IMG/VR virus record: IMGVR_UViG_3300042502_000159
Location: 1 to 33,018 of that record
DNA from: a virus
Length of the DNA: 33,018 nucleotides
Reading direction: 5' to 3' (one strand)
The notes beneath the pieces are model-generated. The model had not been told where the DNA came from and ran no database searches. It saw only the letters and a list, made by a program, of their open reading frames with translations. A program made the translations under genes and the position numbers. Below are positions 9,729 through 32,443 of the stretch, one piece after another. Position 1 is the stretch's first letter. Every line of letters starts with the position of its first letter.

Positions 9729-10358
9729 TTAAGCTGATCTAACAAGGTAGCCTTGAAACACAGTACCATTAGCAAGGATTGTGCGATTTGATCCAGTTAA
9801 ATGTCGCACATACAATTCAGCATAGTCAGTCGAGCCATTCATGTAAATTAAACCAGATACAGATGCGCTATAAGATTGACCGTTGATCCTAGCCCCATCC
9901 GCGACAGGAGATCCATTTTTGTATATTAACGCCCAAAGGTCTTCAGCGTCACCTACAGTCATTCCAATCACACCATGAAAAAAATAGTATCCAGCTACGC
10001 TTGGCGTAAATCTGCTGCTTGCAAAATTACTGTTTGTATCGAAACTCTCAGAACCTAAAACAACCCTAATGCCTGAAGCAGTTGCAACGGCTTGGTCGGT
10101 GCTTGGGTATGCGCTAAAGGCCGGCCCGTTTCCAACCACATTCGTTCCCAGCTTCGCTTGGGTGACCGCGCTAGAAGCAAGCTCATTAGATGTAATTCCA
10201 CCAGCAGACACGGCAAGTTTACCCGGAGATACGACCTGCAAGGTTGTTCCTTGGATTGCATCGCTGGTAAATGTCGTATCATCAATGATGTTATTCATCT
10301 TAGCACTGGTAATTGTGTCAGTGCTTGTAAATGTGTAGGTTGTATTTACAACGCCCAT
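9729..10358 (-). CDS. Tail/appendage protein with C1q-like jelly-roll domain
   Basis: This 209-residue protein has an N-terminal region with NNIIDDTTFTSDAIQG and SSAVTQAKLGTNVVGN, of the kind seen as trimerisation or attachment repeats in phage fibres. The C-terminal ~120 residues (FTPSVAGYYFFHGVIGM, ALIYKNGSPVADGAR, SGLIYMNGSTDYAELYVRH, TVFQGYLV) follow the C1q/TNF-like jelly-roll pattern common in phage receptor-binding and head-decoration proteins. The start context is ATAATATG, with no Shine-Dalgarno. Being next to the nozzle-like protein supports tail attachment. It could alternatively decorate the capsid. Confidence 0.72.
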   Translation of the reverse strand: MGVVNTTYTFTSTDTITSAKMNNIIDDTTFTSDAIQGTTLQVVSPGKLAVSAGGITSNELASSAVTQAKLGTNVVGNGPAFSAYPSTDQAVATASGIRVVLGSESFDTNSNFASSRFTPSVAGYYFFHGVIGMTVGDAEDLWALIYKNGSPVADGARINGQSYSASVSGLIYMNGSTDYAELYVRHLTGSNRTILANGTVFQGYLVRSA

Positions 10359-13165: not shown

Positions 13166-13467
13166 CCATAAACACAAATGTTACCTATCTAGCACATTTA
13201 AGCACAATACACTAGACCTATCCACAAATAACCCCGAACGGGAACTACCCCATTGTAACAATTTTTGTGGGGCTGGTTTATGGATGGCAATAATAAAAAT
13301 AATTTCTTGGTCGACCCCCTCCCCCCGTCATACCTTAGTGGATTGGTAATGATTAGCCTGGTGTTCAAGCGTGCAGTGTTCATGTGATCAGTGCCGGCAA
13401 TGCAAGCGGTCGTTTGAATGTGTCGCTTGAATCACGCGCTTGGCTGGAGAGTGTGCCTTGCCTTGCT

Positions 13468-13608: not shown

Positions 13609-13636
13609 TTGACAACTTTTGCGACATGACTATAAT
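13609..13636 (+). promoter_or_regulatory. Sigma70-type promoter for the rightward early block
   Basis: TTGACA at 13609-13614 and TATAAT at 13631-13636 are both consensus, 16 bases apart. Transcription would begin near 13643 and run rightward with a ~440-base leader before the first convincing gene at 14087. Placed just after the repeats and DnaA-box match, it could be regulated by proteins bound there. Host housekeeping polymerase would suffice. Confidence 0.8.
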
Positions 13637-14332: not shown

Positions 14333-14466
14333 TCCGCGACCTTTTCCTTGCCCTTGCCCTTGTGGCATTGCTTGGCATTGCCATTGCCATTTGCGGCGGG
14401 GCGTGGGGGCCGTCTGACCTTGAAATGCGCGTGCGTGCAAGTGAACCTTTGAACCTCCAAAAATAA
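14329..14466 (+). CDS. Small single-pass membrane protein
   Basis: This 45-residue protein begins MIRDLF, followed by a strongly hydrophobic segment (LALALVALLGIAIAICGG, about residues 7-24) and a short polar tail. AAGGAGGT, seven to eight bases before the ATG, is a good ribosome site, and the start overlaps the preceding stop (ATGA). It could be an early membrane peptide. The function is unknown. Confidence 0.65.
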   Translation: MIRDLFLALALVALLGIAIAICGGAWGPSDLEMRVRASEPLNLQK

Positions 14467-14478
14467 ATCAAAAACCCG

Positions 14479-14583
14479 CTTGCATTGCTAGCAAGTGTGC
14501 ATAGCCTACAAGTCGAAACGGCGCGAGCCGTCCATGGGTCAAGCCCATGCTGAAGAGACTACAACAACAACAACAACAACAAC
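14479..14583 (+). promoter_or_regulatory. Structured leader followed by a CAA-repeat spacer
   Basis: Three hairpins occur in the 132-base gap before the next gene. They are CTTGC/GCAAG (14479-14495), ACGGC-GCGA-GCCGT with a GNRA tetraloop (14518-14531), and CATGGG-TCAAG-CCCATG (14533-14549). A 23-base unstructured ACA/CAA repeat (14561-14583) and then GAAAGGA lead to the ATG at 14599. The pattern suggests a cis-acting RNA, an mRNA processing or stabilising element, or a small RNA. No known riboswitch class was recognised. Confidence 0.5.
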
Positions 14584-14598
14584 GAAAGGAAAACAACG

Positions 14599-14961
14599 AT
14601 GAAAAAGACACTGACCACAAGCGAAATCGCTCATGAATTGATCGACGATGGAAACGCAAATTGGAGCCGTGCGGGTGCATTTGCCCTTGCTCAATACCTC
14701 GAAGAACTCGAAGAAGGCACGGGGGAGGAGATGGAGTTTGACCATGTGGCAATCCGTTGCGAGTGGAGCGAATACGCCGACCTTGAAACCTGGCTCTCCG
14801 AATACTACGGCCGCCCGATTCCCGCCGCCTACGAATCCGCCGGCATTGATTTGGACGGTGAGGAAGACGAGGAGGAGAAGGGAGAATTGATCCGCTCGCA
14901 CATTCAAGACCACGGGACTCTAATTGAGTTCAACGGCGGCATCATTGTTTCCTCATTCTAA
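14599..14961 (+). CDS. Acidic early phage protein
   Basis: This 120-residue, highly acidic protein contains WSRAGAFALAQYLEELEEG, EMEFDHVAIRCEWSEYADLE, DLDGEEDEEEKGEL and a final GTLIEFNGGIIVSSF. This combination recalls a widespread family of uncharacterised phage early proteins. The charge could reflect DNA mimicry, as in antirestriction proteins, but no ArdA motif is evident. It is preceded by the CAA-repeat leader and AAAGGA at 14585-14590. The function is unknown. Confidence 0.75.
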   Translation: MKKTLTTSEIAHELIDDGNANWSRAGAFALAQYLEELEEGTGEEMEFDHVAIRCEWSEYADLETWLSEYYGRPIPAAYESAGIDLDGEEDEEEKGELIRSHIQDHGTLIEFNGGIIVSSF

Positions 14962-14980
14962 ACCATAACCCACCGAAACT

Positions 14981-15277
14981 ATGAACATACACACACACAC
15001 ACAAGGCCCTTGGCATATGGGGGCAGGAAACGGAGAAGGAAGCATTTTCTCCGACAACGGGCGGACACGCTTGGAAATAGGCGGAACCACGCTCTGTTCC
15101 ATAGCTCAAATCACGCGCGGATGGAATGAGGGGGAGGATGAAGCAAACGACCGATTGATCGCCGCCGCGCCGGAAATGTTGGAAGCATTGCAAAGCCTTA
15201 CCCATCCAATGGCAAGCGATCAAGACTTGCAAAATGCCCTTGCCGTCATTGCCAAGGTGAAAGGGGGTGACGCGTGA
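14981..15277 (+). CDS. Conserved phage protein with ANDRLIAAAPEML-type motif
   Basis: This 98-residue protein begins MNIHTHTQGPWHMGAGNGEG. EDEANDRLIAAAPEMLEALQ at about residues 51-70 is a motif shared by many small uncharacterised phage proteins. The gene ends in an overlap with the next gene, whose GTG lies in its final codons. There is no Shine-Dalgarno; the start context is ACCGAAACTATG. The biochemical role is unknown. Confidence 0.75.
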   Translation: MNIHTHTQGPWHMGAGNGEGSIFSDNGRTRLEIGGTTLCSIAQITRGWNEGEDEANDRLIAAAPEMLEALQSLTHPMASDQDLQNALAVIAKVKGGDA

Positions 15278-16823: not shown

Positions 16824-17035
16824 TTAAATTATTTAGCTTGCAAGAGATGGCAGACGACTTGAAACTGCCGCCAGCCGTAGTCGCCCTATGGGCTGCAGAT
16901 GGCTACATACCACACATAATGAGGGACGGATTGCCCTTATTCGACCCCGTTGCGGTGGGGAAGCACATCGCAAAACAACTAAACAACCTAAATAAAATCG
17001 ACGATGGAAACACAACAGACACAACCACAAACTGA
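16820..17035 (+). CDS. MerR/excisionase-like small helix-turn-helix protein
   Basis: This 71-residue protein starts at a GTG overlapping the preceding stop (GTGA). FSLQEMADDLKLPPAVVALW and AADGYIPHIMRDG, then LPLFDPVAVGKHIAKQL, follow the pattern of small winged-helix MerR/excisionase-type domains. The Asn/Thr-rich tail overlaps the RecT gene by 32 bases. It may regulate the early or recombination genes. With no integrase visible, an excisionase role is unlikely. Confidence 0.6.
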   Translation: MIKLFSLQEMADDLKLPPAVVALWAADGYIPHIMRDGLPLFDPVAVGKHIAKQLNNLNKIDDGNTTDTTTN

Positions 17036-17774
17036 AGCGATTGCGGCGCACGAACCGCAAAACACGGGCATTCTAGCGCAAGTCGCGGCTGAAACACAAG
17101 CATTCGAGCTTGTGCAACGGCAAGCGATGATGTTGAGCAAGTCAACCCTAGTCCCCAAGGACTTTGCGGGGAATGTAGCAAACTGCGCGATTGCCCTCAA
17201 TGTTGCAAAACGCACACGCCTTGACCCTCTAATGGTTACGCAAAACCTTGCTATCATCCACGGGCGGCCTTCGTGGTCTGCTACTGCTCTGATCGGCATG
17301 ATCAACGCAAGCGGGAAGTTCTCGCCCCTGCGCTTCGTGATGGACAACGACGAAACTCCAACATCATGCTATGCCGTGGCCCGTGATATGGCGACAGGCG
17401 AGGAACTCAAAGGTGAGCGCATCACCTTGGAGATGGCCAAAAAAGAGGGGTGGAGTACCAAAAATGGTTCGAAGTGGCTGACCATGCCTGGTCAAATGCT
17501 CCGCTACCGCGCCGCTTCATTCTGGAGTCGTGCTTACGCCTCGGACATGTCGCTGGGCATGTACACGCAGGACGAGGTGCGAGACTTTGCAGAACCCCCA
17601 CGCAATGTGACACCCAAGGCAAACCCATTCGTGGCTGAACCAGAACCCGAGCCAGAACCCGTTGAGGTTGTCGAGGCACAGGTTGTCGAGGACAAGCCCA
17701 AGGGGAACACGAAACCCCACGCTGACAAGATCGCGGAAGCATTCGAGAAAATGACCAAGGAGGTAGAACCATGA
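17004..17774 (+). CDS. recT: RecT-family single-strand annealing protein
   Basis: This 256-residue protein would pair complementary single strands during phage recombination and replication. The central region NCAIALNVAKRTRLDPLMVT, LAIIHGRPSWSATALIGMIN, KKEGWSTKNGSKW and LRYRAASFWSRAYA is characteristic of RecT. The C-terminal tail is rich in Glu-Pro repeats. It starts at the ATG at 17004 inside the previous gene, without a Shine-Dalgarno, and couples by ATGA to the exonuclease gene that follows. The annealer-plus-exonuclease pair is a standard two-component recombination system. Confidence 0.93.
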   Translation: METQQTQPQTEAIAAHEPQNTGILAQVAAETQAFELVQRQAMMLSKSTLVPKDFAGNVANCAIALNVAKRTRLDPLMVTQNLAIIHGRPSWSATALIGMINASGKFSPLRFVMDNDETPTSCYAVARDMATGEELKGERITLEMAKKEGWSTKNGSKWLTMPGQMLRYRAASFWSRAYASDMSLGMYTQDEVRDFAEPPRNVTPKANPFVAEPEPEPEPVEVVEAQVVEDKPKGNTKPHADKIAEAFEKMTKEVEP

Positions 17775-18580
17775 GCAATCTAGTCTACAATCTAGGGCGC
17801 AAGTATTACGAGGGGGGCGCAAGCCCCTCCAACTTGGGCGGGTATGTCTCTAAATCCATGCTCTGGGAGTTCGATCAAAGCCCATGGAAATGGTTCCACA
17901 GCGGCCCGAAAGAGACGACACCAGCAATGGAGTTTGGAAGCCTTGTGCATTGCCTTGCACTCACGCCTACCGAGTACGCCGAAACCTATGCCGTAGGCGA
18001 ATACGACTCATTCCGTACCAAAGCGGCGCAGGAATGGCGGGATTCGATGGTAGCACAGGGGAAGGTCTGCATCACTCAAGCCCAACTCAACGCCGCCAAC
18101 GAATGCGCGGAGTCGATCCTCAATGACCTTGACATCCAGCCGCTATTTGTCACCGGGTACAAGACCGAGGTTGCCGTCTACTCGCAGATCGGGGAAACCA
18201 AGGTGCGCGGGATGATTGACCTAGTGCCACAGGCAGGGGACGACTTGGTGGACATCAAGACAACCTCCAGCATTGGCAAAGCTGACGACCTAGCGTCCAT
18301 TGTGGTGCGCCGAGGCTACCATTGGCAAGCCGCCCTCTACCTCGACCTGTTCAACGCCGCCACGGGGCTGGAGCGCACGAATTTCGTGCTTGCCTTTGTC
18401 GAAACATCTGCGCCTTATGAAACCGCAATCGTCAACCTGTCCGGTGATTTCATCGAACAAGGGCGGATCGGATACATGAACGCCATAGCCAAATACCAGA
18501 AATGCGTCTCGGAGAAGATGTTCCCCAAGGCCGTTGAAGGAATCCAAGAACTCTCATTCCCCAAGTGGGCAATCAAATAA
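17771..18580 (+). CDS. RecE-like PD-(D/E)XK exonuclease
   Basis: This 269-residue protein would resect double-stranded ends to give strands for RecT. Motifs fit the PD-(D/E)XK superfamily of RecE/Cas4-like nucleases: FGSLVH with His60, GMIDLV with Asp150, DIKTT with Asp161 and Lys163, and HWQAALYLD with Gln186 and Tyr190. The length matches the stand-alone nuclease domain, without the long N-terminus of full RecE. AAGGAGGT before the ATG and the ATGA overlap ensure co-expression with RecT. Confidence 0.9.
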   Translation: MSNLVYNLGRKYYEGGASPSNLGGYVSKSMLWEFDQSPWKWFHSGPKETTPAMEFGSLVHCLALTPTEYAETYAVGEYDSFRTKAAQEWRDSMVAQGKVCITQAQLNAANECAESILNDLDIQPLFVTGYKTEVAVYSQIGETKVRGMIDLVPQAGDDLVDIKTTSSIGKADDLASIVVRRGYHWQAALYLDLFNAATGLERTNFVLAFVETSAPYETAIVNLSGDFIEQGRIGYMNAIAKYQKCVSEKMFPKAVEGIQELSFPKWAIK

Positions 18581-18584
18581 CAAT

Positions 18585-18890
18585 ATGAAGCAAACAATAG
18601 ACATTAGCCTGGACACAACGAAGATCGACAAGACCGCTCTTTACGAGTCGCCAAAGAACGGAAAGAAATACCTCTCCGTCACGGTTCTGATTCGTGAAGA
18701 AAAGGATAAGTACGGATACGATGGATTCGTAGTCCAGAAGATCAGCAAGGAGCGCAAAGCGGCAGGGGAGAAAGGCCCGATCCTTGGCAACTGCAAGATT
18801 GTTGACTGGGAGGCACAGAAGCCAAGCGTGATTAAGGCGACTCTCCATCCCGACAAGTGGGATGATCCACTCGACGATGTCCCCTTTTAG
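18585..18890 (+). CDS. Putative ssDNA-binding protein with SSB-like acidic tip
   Basis: This 101-residue protein begins MKQTIDISLDTTKIDKTALY. A beta-rich body (KYLSVTVLIREEKDKYGYDG) is followed by a C-terminus WDDPLDDVPF that closely resembles the acidic DDDIPF tip by which SSB recruits partners. It is flanked by the RecT/RecE genes and a RuvC-like gene, which fits a recombination role. It lacks a recognisable classical SSB OB-fold signature, so it may be a divergent SSB or a mimic of the SSB tail. The start has no Shine-Dalgarno. Confidence 0.6.
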   Translation: MKQTIDISLDTTKIDKTALYESPKNGKKYLSVTVLIREEKDKYGYDGFVVQKISKERKAAGEKGPILGNCKIVDWEAQKPSVIKATLHPDKWDDPLDDVPF

Positions 18891-18979
18891 CATGTGGGAA
18901 TCTTGAGTGATGACAAGATGGGTATCCATCCCTTGGCCCGAGGGTTCATCGCAGGGCAAACCACTTTCCGATAACACTT

Positions 18980-19186
18980 ATGATTGAAATGTTGACACCG
19001 ATGGAGGCGCAGAAACTGGGTCATGTCCCGCTTACTCGCCCATACAGAGAAGACTACGAGCACGAAATGAGATGGCTTCGCACCGTCCTGCGTGACATGA
19101 GGGGATGCAACTTCTCCCTCGTGGATACTGGCAGGGGTCTTGAAGTCTGGAGACACAAAAAAGAACTAAACACGATCAAAGAATAA
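18980..19186 (+). CDS. Small protein of unknown function
   Basis: This 68-residue protein begins MIEMLTPMEAQKLGHVPLTR. It contains HEMRWLRTVLRDMRGCNFSL and ends DTGRGLEVWRHKKELNTIKE. A second ATG at 18989 is an alternative start. The 89-base gap upstream has a possible 25-codon reading frame (18910-18987) of doubtful reality. No family was recognised. Confidence 0.6.
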   Translation: MIEMLTPMEAQKLGHVPLTRPYREDYEHEMRWLRTVLRDMRGCNFSLVDTGRGLEVWRHKKELNTIKE

Positions 19187-19190
19187 CACT

Positions 19191-19349
19191 ATGAAACTAA
19201 AACAAATCTACAAACCCGTTCGCGCCATTGGCAGCGACCCGCATTTAACCGTGTCCCTCATGTCTGCCTTGGCATCGCCCAAGCATCGCAAGAGCGGACT
19301 AATGGAAGCACTCAAACGCCTAGCCAACAAGTATGGAGTTGCTATTTAA
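19191..19349 (+). CDS. Small basic protein
   Basis: This 52-residue protein begins MKLKQIYKPVRAIGSDPHLT and ends LMEALKRLANKYGVAI. It starts four bases after the preceding stop and overlaps the next gene by 17 bases. The tight packing and sensible composition support a gene. The function is unknown. Confidence 0.55.
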   Translation: MKLKQIYKPVRAIGSDPHLTVSLMSALASPKHRKSGLMEALKRLANKYGVAI

Positions 19350-19539
19350 CGACCTACCAGAAGAGCTTTCACCTCGCCTCAAGTGGCAGGAGAAGAAGGG
19401 AATCAAGACAATGCGCCGCGATGATGGAAAATGGGTGGCGTACAAGACCGAAACCCGATTCAACAACTCCGACGAGACAGAGGTGGATGCCGTGATAGGA
19501 CTGGCGAAGAAGCTGAAACTTAAACTTTGGAATGAGTAG
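19333..19539 (+). CDS. Small protein preceding the resolvase
   Basis: This 68-residue protein begins MELLFNDLPEELSPRLKWQE. It contains RDDGKWVAYKTETRFNNS and the helical end VDAVIGLAKKLKLKLWNE. It overlaps neighbours at both ends (17 bases upstream, 8 bases with the RuvC-like gene). It may assist the resolvase, but only position suggests this. Confidence 0.6.
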   Translation: MELLFNDLPEELSPRLKWQEKKGIKTMRRDDGKWVAYKTETRFNNSDETEVDAVIGLAKKLKLKLWNE

Positions 19540-19981
19540 AATCACCATAGGAATAGATCCTGGAGCCAACGGCGCAATCGCATGGATTGACGAGCGAGGG
19601 AAGTCTTGCGTCGAGAAGATGCCAGATACCTTGCAGGACTTGTGGGAGCTTATTCGCGACATCACCAACTTCCCAAGGTCAGCGATTGACGGGCGCAAGT
19701 ACAAGGCGTACATCGAGCAAGTGTCCTCCAGTCCGCAGATGGGCGTGGTATCATCGTTCAGCTTTGGACGAGGCTACGGCAACCTGGAGATGGCACTTAC
19801 CGCCGCAGGGATACCCTTCGAGCGTGTGCGCCCACAAGTCTGGCAGAAGGCTATGGGTTGCATGACGAAGGGCAACAAGAACATTACCAAGCAGAAGGCT
19901 CAAGAACTATTCCCAGACAAGAAGGCTACGCATTGGAGTTCTGACGCATTACTCATAGCACTATACGGAACAAAACAATGA
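19532..19981 (+). CDS. RuvC-like Holliday junction resolvase
   Basis: This 149-residue protein has an RNase H-like nuclease fold. GIDPGANGAIAWID carries Asp9, AYIEQV carries Glu62, and the C-terminal HWSSDALLIALYG carries His134 and Asp138, matching the metal-binding acidic residues of RuvC. The length is near that of RuvC. It would resolve branched DNA before packaging, complementing RecE/RecT. The start overlaps the preceding gene, and its last codons overlap the next start (AATGA). Confidence 0.88.
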   Translation: MSRITIGIDPGANGAIAWIDERGKSCVEKMPDTLQDLWELIRDITNFPRSAIDGRKYKAYIEQVSSSPQMGVVSSFSFGRGYGNLEMALTAAGIPFERVRPQVWQKAMGCMTKGNKNITKQKAQELFPDKKATHWSSDALLIALYGTKQ

Positions 19982-23315: not shown

Positions 23316-23360
23316 ACCTCCCACGCCTCTCCACGATGCGCACCAAGGGAGGTTTCTTTT
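23316..23360 (+). terminator. Terminator-like stem for the rightward block
   Basis: ACCTCCC (23316-23322) pairs with GGGAGGT (23347-23353), and the T-rich TTCTTTT follows directly. The 24-base loop is long for an intrinsic terminator, but the position just after the last rightward gene fits. Confidence 0.55.
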
Positions 23361-31450: not shown

Positions 31451-32443
31451 TTAGTAAGCAATCTTACCGTGTGCGCCAGGGTGCTTACAAACAAGCGTAC
31501 CAACCATGTCCACGAAACCACGCTCGCCACCACCTTGGTTCTCAAGGCGTGTCGAACCCATTGGGATGAGGGTGTTGAAACCGAGATACTTCGGATTCAC
31601 CACATAACCACGGGTAGCGGCAGGCATACAGGAAGGGTTAGCATTGATGACATTAACGATGCCAAAGTCGGACTCATACAGGGTAACTGCATGGGTGATC
31701 TTCTTGCTCGAAGCGTCTTGATTGATGCGATAAACAGCTTCAGCAGGGCTGGTAGCTTGACCAGACGAGCGTTGGAAGTTCGAGATCACCTTGCGGAGAG
31801 CAACACCAGCGATGAGGGTAAGGTTATTAGCCTCGCCATTGACAGTGTAAATCGACGCAATGATGTTATTGAAGGTCGTGTCGCTAGGAGATGCCGTAAG
31901 GATCGAATCCGAAGGCGTACGATAAGCGGCAGGAACATCCGAAGGCCCAGCTGAGTCGAGCCAGTCACCAAGTCCACGGAGGGCGTAGGGAGTGCCAGCA
32001 CCGTTCTCAACGGAGCGATCGTTGTCCGAGCAGATAGCGGCCTCCACGTCCCTTTTCAACTCTCTCATGCTTTTTGCCTCCGCCTGTGCAACGTTTGCGG
32101 GGCCAACGGAGCTAACGGCTTGTTGCAGGTTCGACACGATGTAGTCGCGGCGGAAGATTTGGGTGTAGTTGCCAAGACGAGCGCGGCTAGCGAACTTGTC
32201 ATCAAAGGCAGTAACATCCGTACCTTCAGAGATACCAGCAGTCGAAGGAGCCGAAAGAACATCGGCAGTCCACTCGCTGAAAGTACCACTTGCTTTACCC
32301 TTGGAGCAAAGGCTGAGGAGCGGGGTTTCTTCTGGAGCAAGGAGGGTCAACTCGTTAGAGAGATCCTCGCGGTTGGAGATAGCGGAACCCGTGCCAGTCT
32401 TGGCCTGGGGCGCATTTGGTTGATAGGTATTTGAGATACTCAT
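31451..32443 (-). CDS. Major capsid protein, DUF5309/SU10 type
   Basis: This 330-residue HK97-fold subunit would form the head shell. The N-terminal arm contains REDLSNELTLLAPEETPLLS. The core has ASRARLGNYTQIFRRDYIVS, AQAEAKSMRELKRDVEAAIC and ALRGLGDWLDSAG. The C-terminal part has NYESDFG-like VTLYESDFGIVNVI and RGYVVNPKYLGFNTLIPMG. These are hallmarks of the DUF5309/SU10 capsid family. It lies after the scaffold-like gene and before the decoration-like gene, as expected. The start is in ATCATTATG, with no Shine-Dalgarno. Confidence 0.88.
   Translation of the reverse strand: MSISNTYQPNAPQAKTGTGSAISNREDLSNELTLLAPEETPLLSLCSKGKASGTFSEWTADVLSAPSTAGISEGTDVTAFDDKFASRARLGNYTQIFRRDYIVSNLQQAVSSVGPANVAQAEAKSMRELKRDVEAAICSDNDRSVENGAGTPYALRGLGDWLDSAGPSDVPAAYRTPSDSILTASPSDTTFNNIIASIYTVNGEANNLTLIAGVALRKVISNFQRSSGQATSPAEAVYRINQDASSKKITHAVTLYESDFGIVNVINANPSCMPAATRGYVVNPKYLGFNTLIPMGSTRLENQGGGERGFVDMVGTLVCKHPGAHGKIAY

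Follow-up and report, generated by a model that had tools for sequence, protein, structure and literature searches.

A probable type II hammerhead ribozyme in the leader of an early phage gene

Features of the Locus

The window, i.e., the whole stretch of 33,018 nucleotides analysed here (IMG/VR record IMGVR_UViG_3300042502_000159), carries on its plus strand the gene of an acidic protein of 120 amino acids (14599–14961, phrog_9974). The gene lies on the same arm as the RecT-like and exonuclease genes. A RecT-like annealing protein, a PD-(D/E)XK exonuclease and a Holliday junction resolvase are encoded on the plus strand of this right arm (17004–19981), and an SU10-type major capsid protein is encoded on the minus strand (31451–32443). 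Ahead of the 120-residue protein, a promoter-like block (14476–14507, plus strand) sits between the upstream stop codon (14464–14466) and a folded element, the ribozyme described below. Seven perfect CAA units (14562–14582, plus strand) precede the start codon, and a Shine-Dalgarno-like GAAAGGA (14584–14590, plus strand) is placed 8 bases before the ATG. The (CAA)7 tract, which is the only run of at least four units on either strand of the window, lies outside the ribozyme. The tract together with GAAAGGA is consistent with an unstructured translation leader.

A sequence-only reading had described this region as a leader of three hairpins, one with a GNRA loop, followed by a CAA repeat. All three inverted repeats were present (14479–14483/14491–14495, 14518–14531 and 14533–14549), and the GNRA-type loop was GCGA in ACGGC-GCGA-GCCGT (14518–14531). 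The CAA tract was also confirmed, and the proposed division into a folded RNA and an open stretch for ribosome landing was upheld. Hairpins 2 and 3 of that description correspond to stems III and I of the ribozyme, whereas hairpin 1 belongs to the promoter-like block and is broken in some relatives.

The 120-residue protein was evaluated via homology searches and structure prediction. Pfam, searched at E 5, had no match for the window's member; for the relatives it gave three unrelated families, all weak, with one relative each. Among PDB sequences, a profile search had no match with an E value below 0.1. The AlphaFold model had a pLDDT of 88.0, and its best Foldseek match was ArdA (E 0.37). 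In VIA-align, ArdA reached a Z value of 3.8, below those of three AAA+ chains (4.2–4.7); given this ranking and the E value, no fold is claimed. The named homologues (10 records) are hypothetical proteins of Microcystis phages with 32.5–37.2% identity. At the nucleotide level, 14400–15000 had no match in the phage collection.

Identity of the Folded Element

Hammerhead ribozymes are generally recognized by CUGANGA, GAA, an A15.1–U16.1 pair and H17. The letters of 14511–14560 read AGTC-GAA-(ACGGC GCGA GCCGT)-C-(CATGGGT CAA GCCCATG)-CTGAAGA-GACT, in which CUGAAGA (14550–14556), GAA (14515–14517), the pair A14518–U14531 and C14532 were found, all on the plus strand. In the standard hammerhead numbering, C3, U4, G5, A6, N7, G8 and A9 are 14550–14556, as placed by sequence and alignment; G12, A13 and A14 are 14515–14517, the A15.1–U16.1 pair is 14518/14531 and H17 is C14532. 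Three helices with covariation support surround this core. Stem II pairs its 5′-proximal strand AGTC (14511–14514) with its 3′-proximal strand GACT (14557–14560), in agreement with the fold, the covariation and the covariance model. Stem III (14518–14531) has five pairs, ACGGC/GCCGT, and the GCGA loop. Stem I (14533–14549), which is supported by covariation, has seven pairs when U14539–G14543 is counted and the loop CAA. The three-way junction was the minimum-energy fold of the core folded alone. The parts are ordered II-GAA-III-C-I-CUGANGA-II, with loops on stems I and III and an open stem II, which is the type II permutation as defined in Perreault 2011 (PMC3088659).

The stretch 14511–14560 is very probably a hammerhead ribozyme of type II, the form in which stem II is open, and we infer from this identity that it cuts itself. 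It is therefore of a known kind already described from phages, and its unusual aspect is its placement, very close 3′ of promoter-like sequence. The whole reading, in which the 5′ leader of an early gene of the phage contains a self-cleaving type II hammerhead, is given a probability of about 0.85. Cleavage is predicted 3′ of C17, between C14532 and C14533, a site placed by likeness to the hammerhead core. The sequence-only reading had put no name to the RNA; it noted two of the stems, III and I, as independent hairpins and overlooked the AGTC/GACT stem, and a permuted hammerhead takes the place of that description. Its remark that no known riboswitch fits was borne out, with no Rfam riboswitch match, nor one to another relevant family, at gathering or at E 10. 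This result, which concerns the known aptamer families, also bears on a ligand-controlled leader, either a riboswitch or an aptazyme, for which the position ahead of one gene would be suitable. Such control is very improbable. With the 50-base core explained and the remainder being promoter-like block or CAA tract, little room is left for an aptamer.

The possibility of chance hairpins beside a CAA microsatellite was weighed against several controls. The folding energy alone was unremarkable: the 132-base stretch had a z value of −1.47, with 17 of 200 shuffles folding as well, and the 73-base core had a z value of −2.08, with 7 of 200 shuffles as good. However, the hammerhead descriptor, which combines the core letters with three helices, matched once in the window and only three times on both strands of 3000 Markov-1 windows of like composition. 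The covariance model R1 was built from 25 other phage hammerheads of the short form only, none of which lies 3′ of the promoter-like block, and it matched the window with 70.4 bits (E 1.4e-16). With the covariation reported below added to these values, chance is scarcely credible.

The curated Rfam model RF02276 (Hammerhead_II, cut-off 37 bits) left the window unmatched at gathering and at E 10. In 13 other loci, Rfam gave nine matches, which covered 8 of the 36 hammerheads found by the descriptor; one Rfam match in these loci was missed by the descriptor. Only 1 of the 15 hammerheads with a 17-base stem-loop I in these loci was covered, and the curated cut-off is therefore insensitive to this form. 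According to this proportion among the short-loop forms examined, phage ribozymes may be under-annotated. The 13 relatives found through the protein had no Rfam match at gathering. The window resembles the type II hammerheads of RF02276 and PMC3088659 in its core, its three helices, its open stem II and its phage setting, and those ribozymes often occur several per phage and between genes. It differs from them in the 17-base stem-loop I, the missing pseudoknot, the lack of Rfam detection, the location directly behind the promoter-like block and the CAA leader that follows.

Covariation and Tertiary Contact

The core pattern was found in at least 119 stretches of viral contigs. When the pattern was used with no demand for stem I pairing, 112 distinct sequences were obtained among the matches listed. 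At least four stem I pairs and at least two further stem III pairs were formed in 107 of these 112, compared with 0.6% of letter shuffles.

The sequence-only reading had staked its structure on compensatory changes in homologues. Double compensatory changes were found in 12 of 16 pairs in 36 sequences and in 6 of 16 pairs in the 11 nearest; the structure therefore survives. The 36 rows form the ungapped alignment A2, which comprised 37 fixed-length matches minus the chance match L106, and 98.4% of its cells pair. The covariation score of A2 was 0.686, whereas that of shuffles was 0.160 and that with slid partners was at most 0.095. In stem III, 100% of the cells were paired and three of the five pairs had double changes; in stem I, double changes occurred in six of the seven pairs in the 36 rows and in five of the seven in the 11 nearest. 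The 11 rows sharing the promoter-like block contained 19 cells with double changes, and their score was 0.343, compared with 0.144 for shuffles. The measures that count pairs or types were only modestly above shuffles in the 36 rows, the observed values being reached by 14 and 13 of 500 shuffles; in the 11 rows, they were reached by 16 and 450 of 500. Most rows of A2, and of the alignment A4, came from loci retrieved with a pattern in which AGTC/GACT, GAAAC, GTC and CTGANGA are fixed. The conservation of those letters is therefore imposed, and the invariance of GAA in 36 of 36 rows concerns letters fixed by the search. That pattern did not select for the changes seen in stem I, in stem III and at the flanking base, although the descriptor requires at least three pairs per stem.

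A pseudoknot of loop I speeds many type II ribozymes. In the window, no such pairing over at least four bases was found between loop I and the tail that follows stem II: UCAAG, which is loop I with its closing U–G, lacks such a complement in the tail ACAACAACAACA. The pseudoknot is optional and not defining for type II, and the window lies outside the pseudoknotted subclass. Pseudoknotted type II ribozymes from the same contig set (for example, L108, L122 and L130) share the core and the intercistronic placing with the window. In these, a long loop I can pair with the corresponding tail, whereas the window has at most one loop-to-flank contact. This contact is predicted between U14539, the first base in the loop of stem I, and the base 5′ of stem II, A14510 (plus strand). 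All 85 hammerheads with a stem-loop I of 17 bases have complementary bases at these two positions, U–A in 63 and A–U in 22; among 27 representatives less than 80% alike, the counts were 21 and 6. Neither base is fixed by the pattern or the descriptor. For the 79 distinct rows, a rough tree based on about 50 columns needed 5 switches of the contact, compared with a shuffled mean of 17.9, and the 85 cases therefore represent a handful of events. Novelty is not claimed for this predicted tertiary contact, as non-pseudoknot contacts are treated in a supplementary figure of Perreault 2011 (PMC3088659).

These results also bear on whether the element is an inactive ribozyme relic, of which the two hairpins would merely protect the messenger end. 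The absence of the pseudoknot would be in line with a relic, as would the relative L145, in which one stem II pair is broken. However, the stem letters vary yet the pairing is kept, and the tertiary contact base is also kept, which makes a relic unlikely.

Relatives and Genomic Setting

With the downstream protein as query, 13 contigs were obtained. The ribozyme lies ahead of the gene in L002–L006 and L008, all of which were matched by R1, and four distinct ribozymes are represented, the window's own included. The relatives L004, L006 and L008 were found via the protein and not via the RNA, and they carry the ribozyme. R1 also matched L013, although this locus helped build R1; its hammerhead lies directly 3′ of the gene's stop. 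L007 has another leader at the same place ahead of the same gene. R1 left L007, L009–L012 and L014 unmatched, the one match within the gene region of L007 being at chance level (E 0.95). Relatives of the protein are also encoded at four loci in bacterial genomes (one each from Cloacimonadota, Alistipes, Clostridia and an uncultured bacterium). With R1, which covers the short form only, no match at E 1 was obtained at these loci, and none was obtained at E 1 in the stretches from two Microcystis phage homologues (L156 and L157). In L028, L035, L105 and L129, a hammerhead directly follows the stop codon of what appears to be the same protein family, as judged by eye from the C-terminal letters.

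The setting of the fetched hammerheads was then counted after exact duplicate contexts had been merged, which reduced 194 matches to 166. Among hammerheads without the promoter-like block, 142 of 157 had the stop of an open frame at most 15 bases upstream, compared with 352 of 3320 random positions (10.6%). An open frame denotes at least 40 codons, or at least 25 if the contig end cuts the frame. A start codon was present within 120 bases downstream in 161 of 166, a count that has no random control and concerns codons that are common. At least two hammerheads were held by 39 of 125 loci, some of which are copies of one contig. The stop-codon setting of most hammerheads in the fetched contigs agrees with Perreault 2011 (PMC3088659), where type II hammerheads, of which examples cleave in vitro, and clustered hammerheads flanking genes in prophages are reported.

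CAA runs of at least five units were found in 12 distinct contexts among the loci examined. Nine of them lie directly behind a hammerhead, eight being identified by pattern and that of L145, whose run overlaps the pattern, by eye. The other three (L008, L146 and L090) lie shortly before an ATG.

The Promoter-like Block and Its Interchangeable Leaders

The promoter-like block (14476–14507) contains a −35-like TTGCAT (14480–14485), a 16-base spacer and a −10-like TAGCCT (14502–14507), all on the plus strand. Its recurring sequence suggests a promoter with 16-base spacing. The list from a consensus promoter scan of the window did not include the 14476–14507 block. In viral contigs, the block was found in 24 distinct cassettes, 23 of which are covered by the column tallies. 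The −10-like box reads TA...T in 23 of 23 tallied cassettes, and of these letters only the last T was free in all searches; the listing pattern required CGCTTG.ATTGC, and the fetching pattern also required ATA.

Hairpin 1 (14479–14495, CTTGC/GCAAG) lies inside the block. It was not formed as described in the minimum-energy fold of the whole stretch. Its inverted repeat is kept in, e.g., L004 and L007 and broken in, e.g., L006 and L008, while the surrounding promoter-like letters persist; hairpin 1 as a conserved RNA stem was therefore rejected. On the minus strand, hairpin 1 has a terminator-like score, and such sites were no commoner than in shuffles (2 found, 2.0 expected). Further upstream, a perfect consensus TTGACA-16-TATAAT promoter-like site is directed towards the rightward genes (13609–13636, plus strand). 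A similar CGYTTRCATTGCC block is directed towards the leftward genes (about 13370–13410, minus strand) and recurs in L006, L008, L103 and L118; it is perhaps a shared operator.

The 24 distinct cassettes comprise 11 with the hammerhead, 11 with a leader B (around ACGCGGCCAGCGGAGCATGGCAAACC) and 2 with a leader C, and several different genes lie downstream. The B cassette of L147 missed the leader filter and was counted by eye; the second B copy of L035, with a weaker block, is outside the 24. Leader B consists of about 30 conserved bases at the hammerhead's place (L007 2924–2948, L035 in two copies, L134–L137, L139–L141, L143, L147 and L149). Leader C reads CGACGGCGGG...CTGCCAG...AGTGCCAACC and was seen in two contigs, L144 (about 9810–9850) and L146 (minus strand). 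Every B-type stretch shown from the search by leader B alone also bears the promoter-like block. Like the window's leader, leaders B and C (for example, in L139 and L144) stand at this position and continue to the start codon in a run rich in A and C; unlike it, they have about 25–40 conserved bases and no hammerhead core.

Leader B is a candidate for a new structured or regulatory RNA. The leader B of L007 was rejected as a known ribozyme, Rfam at E 10 giving only three weak, unrelated matches. When six B leaders and two C leaders were folded as single sequences, the results disagreed with one another, and no structure is therefore claimed. In bacteria, self-cleaving ribozymes are reported to be enriched close to each other (PMC10085705); on this ground, leaders B and C may be additional RNAs that cut themselves or process RNA ends. 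The aspect that merits further work is the exchange of leaders behind a shared promoter-like block. L008 and L007 have the same block and the same gene, with and without the ribozyme, respectively, and offer a clean natural comparison.

Transcription Start and Proposed Mechanism

The motif, topology, conservation, covariation and genomic position of the ribozyme have computed support. An RNA containing 14511–14560 would fold into the three-way junction and cut itself at C14532/C14533. The upstream product would end in hairpin III with a 2′,3′-cyclic phosphate. The gene's messenger would have a 5′-hydroxyl, with hairpin I at its extreme end, followed by the open CAA leader with the ribosome site. 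The likeliest substrates would be read-through RNAs of upstream early promoters; in relatives with a longer gap past the −10 box, the RNA begun at the adjacent promoter would also be a substrate. The purpose would be the separation and re-capping of messenger RNAs. The purpose of prokaryotic hammerheads is named among the field's open questions in PMC6155905.

The transcription start was predicted to fall inside stem II or just before it. By eye, the gap from the −10-like box to AGTC was 2–3 bases in 5 of the 11 hammerhead cassettes and 7 bases in the other 6. With +1 placed 7 bases past the −10 box, the latter (L004, L037, L059, L060, L103 and L145) would begin with the A that immediately precedes stem II, and their transcript would be the whole ribozyme with nothing ahead of it. 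In the window, L006, L008, L092 and L151, +1 would be at the last AGTC base or just after, and stem II would be lost. The −10-like box of the window ends at 14507, which with the usual 7-base gap would give a start near 14514, inside AGTC. The predicted probability of stem II was 0.79, 0.73 and 0.63 for RNAs starting at 14508, 14511 and 14480, respectively, and 0.17 and 0.013 in longer read-through RNA from 14460 and 14400. The start-site placing and the folding predictions are in conflict with each other.

Since the adjacent promoter would start inside stem II, only read-through RNA may be cut in this lineage, and the promoter's own messenger would remain intact. The start near 14514, the division of the cassettes into short and long gaps and the perfect consensus site upstream at 13609–13636 favor this refinement. 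However, the −10 box and the start site are themselves predictions, and the ribozyme is predicted to misfold when more upstream RNA is present; we rate the refinement at somewhat below even odds. A broader proposal is that a phage group uses a movable promoter-plus-leader cassette with an interchangeable leader, either the hammerhead or one of the two short RNAs B and C. In the hammerhead form, +1 would be at or just inside the ribozyme, and either 5′ ends would be replaced by a 5′-hydroxyl hairpin or read-through RNA would be cut and the promoter's own RNA spared. This proposal is tentative and, taken as a whole, rather doubtful.

The literature already covers self-cleaving ribozymes of prokaryotes and phages, including how they cluster and that their purpose is unsettled (PMC3088659, PMC6155905 and PMC10085705). 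A search by title and abstract opening of the open literature, with subscription journals mostly outside it, found no paper on a hammerhead at a phage promoter.

Elsewhere in the window, no AbiF-type Pfam match was found among the 10 ORFs scanned around 23317–23353, where Rfam identified an abiF RNA on the plus strand with 47.2 bits. As a guess, this RNA could be a lone antitoxin-like RNA that is useful in counter-defence.
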